Shown: positions 848-2,205 of the stretch, in pieces
Layout: every line of letters starts with the position of its first letter
Numbering within the stretch: position 1 is the first letter of the stretch
The notes under the pieces: generated by a model
What the model saw: the letters and a program-made list of their open reading frames with translations, nothing else
Database searches by the model: none
Told to the model about the DNA's origin: nothing
NCBI RefSeq assembly: GCF_002846395.1
Contig: NZ_PJMU01000001.1
Location: 434,001 to 498,000, forward strand
Source: Pontibacter ramchanderi
Lineage (GTDB): Bacteria; Bacteroidota; Bacteroidia; Cytophagales; Hymenobacteraceae
Length of the DNA: 64,000 bases
Direction of reading: 5' to 3'
Translations under genes and position numbers: made by a program

Positions 848-1735
848 ATGCTAACACACTTAAAACGCATCCTATACCTATCGATGGTTGGCTGGATGCT
901 GGTTTCCTGCTCGGAAGAATCTGTAATCTCGCCAAAGGATGAGGCCAATGTTGGTACGCCTGACAGCATTGCCAATGCCACTGCCACGAAAGATGGTAAC
1001 CTGGCAATGGGCAACCCAAGCGGGGCCAACACCAGTTACTCCAATTACCTGATCAACAAGTCGCAGTTTTCGATGTCCTATAACTCTTACCGAGGCACAC
1101 CAAACTGGGTTAGCTGGCACCTGAGCAGTGCCTGGTTGGGCAGCACACCGCGCCAGGATGATTTCCGGGCGGATAACTCCCTGCCAAGTGCTTTCTACAG
1201 GGTTCAGCCGTCCGACTACACTGGTAGTGGTTTTGATCGTGGCCACAATACACCTTCAGCTGATCGTACACTTACCGTGTCGGACAATTCGGCCACATTC
1301 CTGATGTCGAACATGATTCCGCAGGCACCTACCAACAACCAGCAGGCCTGGGCGAACCTGGAGAACTATTGTCGCAAATTGGTCAGTCAGGGCAATGAAC
1401 TCTATATCATCATGGGGCAGTACGGCAAAGGCGGCACAGGCAGCAATGGCTATAAGGAAACCTTGGCCAATGGAAAGGTAACAGTGCCGAACCGTATCTG
1501 GAAGGTGATTGTAGTATTGCCCGTAGGCACTAGTGACGTAAGCCGGGTGACCACCAGTACCCGTGTCATCGCGATTGATACGCCCAACTCCAACAATATC
1601 AGCACCAGCTGGGGAACGTACCGCACCACCGTGGACGCTATCGAAGCCAAAACAGGCTATAACATCCTCTCCAATGTATCCTCTTCTGTTCAGAGTGTAA
1701 TCGAAGCGCGGGTAGACAACGGACCAACATCTTAA
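848..1735 (+). CDS. Exported DNA/RNA non-specific endonuclease (NUC1/NucA family lipoprotein)
   Basis: The protein has 295 residues. I chose ATG 848 because a lipoprotein signal starts exactly there: a basic start, a hydrophobic core, then LVSC with Cys21. The frame is open back to a TTG at 794, which would wrongly place the signal internally. The catalytic signature DRGH is at residues 130-133 in the context SGFDRGHNTPSADR, followed by an Asn- and Glu-containing segment (MSNMIPQ, then AWANLE). These are the conserved parts of the metal-dependent NUC1 family, which cuts DNA and RNA without sequence preference. The lipoprotein signal places it in the envelope or on the cell surface, with a likely role in nucleotide scavenging, defence or competition. 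Its convergent neighbour encodes a NuiA-type inhibitor of this enzyme family. Confidence 0.93.
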   Translation: MLTHLKRILYLSMVGWMLVSCSEESVISPKDEANVGTPDSIANATATKDGNLAMGNPSGANTSYSNYLINKSQFSMSYNSYRGTPNWVSWHLSSAWLGSTPRQDDFRADNSLPSAFYRVQPSDYTGSGFDRGHNTPSADRTLTVSDNSATFLMSNMIPQAPTNNQQAWANLENYCRKLVSQGNELYIIMGQYGKGGTGSNGYKETLANGKVTVPNRIWKVIVVLPVGTSDVSRVTTSTRVIAIDTPNSNNISTSWGTYRTTVDAIEAKTGYNILSNVSSSVQSVIEARVDNGPTS

Positions 1736-1760
1736 GGTATAGCTTGATAAGCTATATAAA

Positions 1761-1791
1761 AAAATCCCCGGCTGCTCTAGTCGGGGATTTT
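1761..1791. terminator. Bidirectional terminator between nuclease and inhibitor genes
   Basis: Perfect 10-bp stem AAAATCCCCG (1761-1770) with CGGGGATTTT (1782-1791) and an 11-nt loop; T-runs follow on both strands. It lies between two convergent genes. A smaller hairpin, TATAGCTT/AAGCTATA with a 3-nt loop, sits just before it at 1738-1756. Confidence 0.85.
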
Positions 1792-1800
1792 GCTTTTTTC

Positions 1801-2205
1801 TCAGGTTTCCACCACCATTGTTTTGAGGCCGGCTATCTCGCCTCCCGGTGTGCGGCCAAGTATGAGCACCAGTTTCTGGGTTTCACCAATGCGGTACACC
1901 TTCACGCCCTGCAGGAGCTCCTGTAGTTTTTTCTCCAGGTTCTGAAAACGGTTGGCCTGCTGCAAACCCTTTTCGCCCGCGTCCGGTCTGGCTTGGGTCA
2001 TATTTCGAAAAAAATACCCTAGTTCCATTTCCTCATAAGGATAATCGGCAGGCATGCCGGCCAGTTTGAGTACCGTTTCTTCATTCAGTTCTTCTCCCTG
2101 GAAATTCTCGGCTAAGTAAAATTCAAAAGGAGCGTCGGTCTCACTCAACATGAGCAGTCCGTCGGTCGCCGCTTTCAGTTCAGTTTCAATTTGTTTTAGA
2201 TCCAT
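1801..2205 (-). CDS. nuiA: Nuclease A inhibitor family protein (NuiA-like)
   Basis: The 134-residue protein has no signal peptide. Its length and ends match the Anabaena nuclease inhibitor NuiA as I remember it: an N-terminal run DGLLMLSE-x-PFE and a C-terminal run VYRIGET...GxTPGGEIAG..VVET. NuiA binds and blocks NucA, a DRGH-type non-specific nuclease. The neighbouring convergent gene (848-1735) encodes exactly such a nuclease, so the pair is very probably an enzyme and its dedicated inhibitor. The nuclease is predicted to be exported, whereas this protein looks cytosolic. It would therefore protect the cell from unexported or re-entering enzyme. The start ATG is at 2203-2205. Confidence 0.9.
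   Translation of the reverse strand: MDLKQIETELKAATDGLLMLSETDAPFEFYLAENFQGEELNEETVLKLAGMPADYPYEEMELGYFFRNMTQARPDAGEKGLQQANRFQNLEKKLQELLQGVKVYRIGETQKLVLILGRTPGGEIAGLKTMVVET

Follow-up and report, generated by a model that had tools for sequence, protein, structure and literature searches.

A NucA-NuiA nuclease-inhibitor gene pair in a Bacteroidota genus and its probable role in self-protection

The pair formed by the non-specific nuclease NucA and its inhibitor NuiA was first described from cyanobacteria. In Anabaena, where NucA corresponds to All7362 (PMC4390845), the inhibition of NucA by NuiA is established (PMC4890671, PMC5758888), and another described nuclease inhibitor, Nin, bears little structural likeness to NuiA (PMC5758888). 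The NucA-NuiA system is hence a known one, and what is new here is a Bacteroidota pair, found in a stretch of 64,000 nucleotides from Pontibacter ramchanderi that is called the window in what follows. The locus is made up of three features:

848 to 1735, forward strand: putative DNA/RNA non-specific endonuclease of the NucA type, a predicted lipoprotein of 295 amino acids with the lipobox LVSC followed by SEES
1761 to 1791, both strands: predicted bidirectional intrinsic terminator common to both genes, a 14-pair hairpin with T-runs on either side
1801 to 2205, reverse strand: predicted NuiA, inhibitor of the NucA-type nuclease, 134 amino acids, with a C-terminal Thr and without a signal peptide

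We consider it very likely (with a probability of roughly 0.9) that this locus is a NucA-NuiA pair in which NuiA protects the cell from the broad nuclease that it exports.

The nuclease reading frame runs from an ATG at 848 to a stop codon at 1735 and contains the DRGH motif. Its product matches the Pfam model Endonuclease_NS (PF01223) with E=3.9e-55, and its best match among all solved structures is Anabaena NucA (1zm8/2o3b; E=1.8e-77), with which it shares 53% identity and behind which EXOG, EndoG and the Serratia nuclease rank far back. The catalytic residues that were checked (R93, D121, R122, H124, N155, W159, E163 and R167, in NucA numbering) are all kept. With domain, motif and catalytic residues in place, the protein is, as far as its sequence can tell, a NucA-type endonuclease, and the DRGH nuclease lipoprotein proposed in the first-pass annotation is borne out by these matches and by the lipobox. 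No other gene of the Endonuclease_NS family is found in the genome, and the pair lies near genes for an SDR dehydrogenase, an SCO1-like protein and a nitrite-reductase-like protein. As regards the reference structure, the D121A change of PDB 2O3B is placed in NuiA by PMC5374557; chain A of the entry reads ARGH in place of DRGH, so that the change lies in NucA.

The LVSC lipobox belongs to a lipoprotein signal that predicts an exported protein, and it is kept among the relatives of the genus. In the nucleases of many close relatives, the lipobox Cys is followed by Ser-Lys-(Asp/Glu)2 (i.e. C-S-K-(D/E)2), a sequence that fits the published export signal of Bacteroidota surface lipoproteins, C-X-K-(D/E)2 (PMC5080379). 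The SEES that follows the lipobox in the window is without the Lys of many relatives and stands nearer to the Bacteroides and Flavobacterium variants of this signal. The nuclease is predicted to be anchored in the envelope, probably on the outer membrane and facing outwards.

The second gene (ATG at 2205, stop at 1801, minus strand) encodes a protein that covers the entire Pfam NuiA model (PF07924; E=1.8e-36), matches the NuiA chain of 2O3B (2o3b_B) with E=2.5e-18 and shares 35% identity with Anabaena NuiA. An AlphaFold model of the protein (mean pLDDT 91) superposes on that chain of the NucA-NuiA crystal with a TM of 0.95 and an rmsd of 1.1 Å. Judged by profile and model, it is a full-length NuiA with the predicted NuiA fold, as its noted resemblance to the Anabaena protein had suggested. 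Glu24 and the C-terminal Thr135, two NuiA residues that reach the active-site metal of the nuclease in the 2O3B complex, are both represented in the window protein, by Glu22 and Thr134 respectively. The two window proteins fall into the same families as Anabaena NucA and NuiA, and the functional coherence attributed to their pairing is supported as well. On reading its N-terminus, MDLKQIETELKAATDG, no signal peptide is visible; because of this, and because its HIT-fused relatives (see below) are of a cytosolic enzyme type, NuiA is predicted to be cytosolic. The NuiA family, too, is represented in the genome by exactly one gene. A search for NuiA in 14 control genomes returned no match, and none was found in phage records.

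The distribution of the two genes shows that their pairing is not a matter of chance. Within the window's genus, NuiA is present in all 50 genomes and the nuclease in 46 of them; four genomes have NuiA without the nuclease and none has the nuclease without NuiA. The two genes are adjacent in 40 of the 46 nuclease-bearing genomes, against about 0.1 expected by chance, so that the rarity of adjacency in relatives, which would have spoken against the pair, is the opposite of what is seen. Across the order (291 genomes), NuiA occurs in 100 genomes and the nuclease in 182, the latter being present in 98 of the 100 genomes that bear NuiA versus 84 of the 191 that do not. The inhibitor is hence not always needed, since those 84 of the 182 nuclease genomes have Endonuclease_NS but no NuiA. 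Elsewhere in the phylum, the nuclease is present in all 16 NuiA-bearing genomes that were checked. In the genome G696 (L316), nuiA is broken into two reading frames, by a frameshift or an assembly error, beside an intact nuclease gene.

Of the 47 NuiA genes in the window's family, 40 are found no more than about 7 kb from a nuclease gene, and in the order's remaining families a single genome has the two linked. Where NuiA is unlinked, a search for some other conserved neighbour yielded only ordinary local synteny. That NuiA stands apart from the nuclease in most of these families, is retained without it in some genomes and is fused to HIT enzymes in relatives might be taken to mean that the window NuiA has another target, and that the two genes are chance neighbours whose adjacency is a relic. 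We find such a reading hardly credible in view of the 40 linked genomes, of the presence of the linkage in two phyla and of the fact that linked copies keep the inhibitory C-terminus exactly.

This last point emerges from the comparison of linked and unlinked copies. In a diverse alignment of 26 NuiA sequences, Ser-Glu and the terminal Thr are invariant, and the terminal residue is exactly Thr in 94 of the 101 NuiA of the order survey. All 27 nuclease-linked copies examined in the genus end in Thr and carry an SE[TS][DE] motif, versus 6 of 23 unlinked copies with the terminal Thr (p=1e-8, a value that ignores kinship). A set of unlinked paralogues in the window's genus (L148, L154 and L298-L311) has lost this residue, mostly with an acidic tail (e.g. 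QDEATIKEQEE) replacing the Thr end, and the nuclease-free genome G705 has Asn in its stead. Since L148 and L154 group together in the NuiA tree, the paralogues appear to form mainly one clade, which implies few independent events of Thr loss. The preservation of Thr in linked copies and its loss in unlinked paralogues make up a natural experiment on the importance of individual NuiA residues.

The fusions to HIT domains come in two kinds. In the first, NuiA is C-terminal to a HINT-type HIT domain with an intact HxHxH motif, an architecture found at 35 loci (L105:7583-8416, L119:7305-8174 and 33 more) in two genera, g2 and g5, of the window's family. Where this was examined, at L105 and L119, the fusion gene sits downstream of a greA-like gene, and in most of the loci a larger nuclease lies convergent to the fusion at a distance of 0.6-6.5 kb. 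In the second kind, encountered in another family of the phylum (L170, L171:979-1881 and L173), NuiA is joined to an Ap4A-phosphorylase-like HIT domain; at L172, a HIT gene (1899-2501) adjoins nuiA without being fused to it. The fusion has apparently arisen twice independently, the two kinds falling into different regions of the NuiA tree and involving two HIT subfamilies. That NuiA is attached to the end of a HIT enzyme in g2 and g5 also argues for a cytosolic location. The two fusions, the Thr-less paralogue and the retention of NuiA in a few nuclease-free genomes also point, if tentatively, to a wider cytosolic job of Bacteroidota NuiA than guarding one neighbouring nuclease. We deem this broader role unlikely; if true, it would suggest that the control of nucleases is linked with nucleotide chemistry.

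The stop codons of the two window genes, which converge, are 65 bp apart, and the hairpin between them is predicted to fold at -28.6 kcal/mol on one strand and at -21.2 kcal/mol on the other (z against shuffles of -4.6 and -4.8), in agreement with the first-pass description of convergent genes with one common terminator. Equivalent hairpins, differing in sequence, are found in nearly all the convergent relatives of the genus; a promoter scan at the locus gave no signal above chance. The genus has 43 linked copies: 27 are arranged convergently, 16 are codirectional, with the nuclease gene first in 13 cases, and a divergent order does not occur. Convergence also prevails in 70 of 80 named NuiA loci, an uneven sample that is nearly all cyanobacterial because the close-NuiA pattern with which it was found favours SES(D/E)(Y/E)P types, and annotated convergent pairs are plasmid-borne in Nostoc PCC 7524 and Trichormus variabilis. 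Convergence is thus the usual cyanobacterial layout and nothing special to the window genome; the NuiA tree (125 columns) leaves many forks open as to whether this order arose once. On a plasmid of Nodularia spumigena, a nuclease reading frame adjoining nuiA (L166:4390-5037, minus strand) is absent from the gene table; it may be a pseudogene, or the table may be incomplete at this point.

Convergent order had led to the proposal that transcription of one gene might regulate the other through antisense read-through. The mRNAs would indeed overlap at some cyanobacterial loci, such as those of Gloeothece, where the two reading frames are only some bases apart or run into each other, but here and in nearly all convergent relatives of the genus a strong bidirectional terminator stands between the genes, and with 16 of 43 linked copies codirectional the orientation is not kept, relatives switching between convergent and nuclease-first arrangements. 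The proposal does not stand up well to these observations, and we regard antisense control as quite improbable.

Protection of the exporting cell by NuiA offers a more satisfactory account of the locus. The nuclease would be synthesised in the cytosol, leave it by the lipoprotein route and become anchored in the envelope, where it may degrade extracellular DNA and RNA for nutrients. NuiA would remain in the cytosol and bind any nuclease folding or leaking there before export, plugging the active site in such a way that Glu24 and the C-terminal Thr extend to the catalytic metal, as seen in the Anabaena crystal, and this blocking would spare the cell's own nucleic acids. The mechanism is suggested by the Anabaena system (PMC4890671, PMC5758888) and by the conserved residues. 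The NucA-NuiA guard, studied in one cyanobacterium, proves to be a standard linked pair across a Bacteroidota genus and in related genera. The pair also hints at how cells produce and export an enzyme destructive to DNA as well as RNA without harm to themselves.

The first-pass annotation had left the choice between self-protection and an effector-immunity pair, in which the nuclease would attack neighbouring cells while NuiA, as the immunity protein, shielded sister cells. Polymorphic toxin systems do employ NucA-fold domains as toxins (PMC3482391), and here an inhibitor gene adjoins that of the nuclease. Nonetheless, the window nuclease is a short lipoprotein of one domain and lacks delivery, repeat and pre-toxin domains, NuiA is absent from the immunity families given for Tox-NucA (Imm36, SUKH and NTF2; PMC3482391), the neighbouring genes include no secretion system, and the pair is near-universal and stable in the genus rather than polymorphic. 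Self-protection fits these data, and the effector-immunity half of the suggestion, lacking a toxin-delivery architecture, seems to us very improbable. A search of the locus for defence systems gave no match, and one against NCBIfam no assignment above chance. With no secreted carrier and no listed immunity family, the pair falls outside the polymorphic toxin-immunity systems, and the export signal of the nuclease and the terminator between convergent genes likewise set it apart from type II toxin-antitoxin systems.

Among described systems, the polymorphic toxins that combine Tox-NucA with Imm36, SUKH or NTF2 likewise consist of a NucA-fold nuclease and a neutralising protein, but the window pair has neither trafficking domains nor a variable toxin tip, and its inhibitor is of another family. 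Bacillus subtilis NucA/NucB and Nin also join a non-specific His-Me finger nuclease to a neighbouring inhibitor gene, although their proteins have no significant sequence homology to those of the NucA-NuiA pair (PMC5758888). The closest counterpart is the NucA-NuiA pair of Anabaena sp. PCC 7120 (PDB 2O3B, 1ZM8, 1KTU/1J57), with which the window pair shares both families, the inhibitor fold, the checked catalytic residues, and the Glu24 and C-terminal Thr of NuiA. Its convergent gene order is that of the cyanobacterial relatives, including those on Trichormus and Nostoc plasmids. On the other hand, the window pair lies on a Bacteroidota chromosome instead of a cyanobacterial plasmid, has diverged to 53% (nuclease) and 35% (NuiA) identity, has a terminator between its genes, and comprises a nuclease that is predicted to be a lipoprotein with a signal resembling those for surface export.
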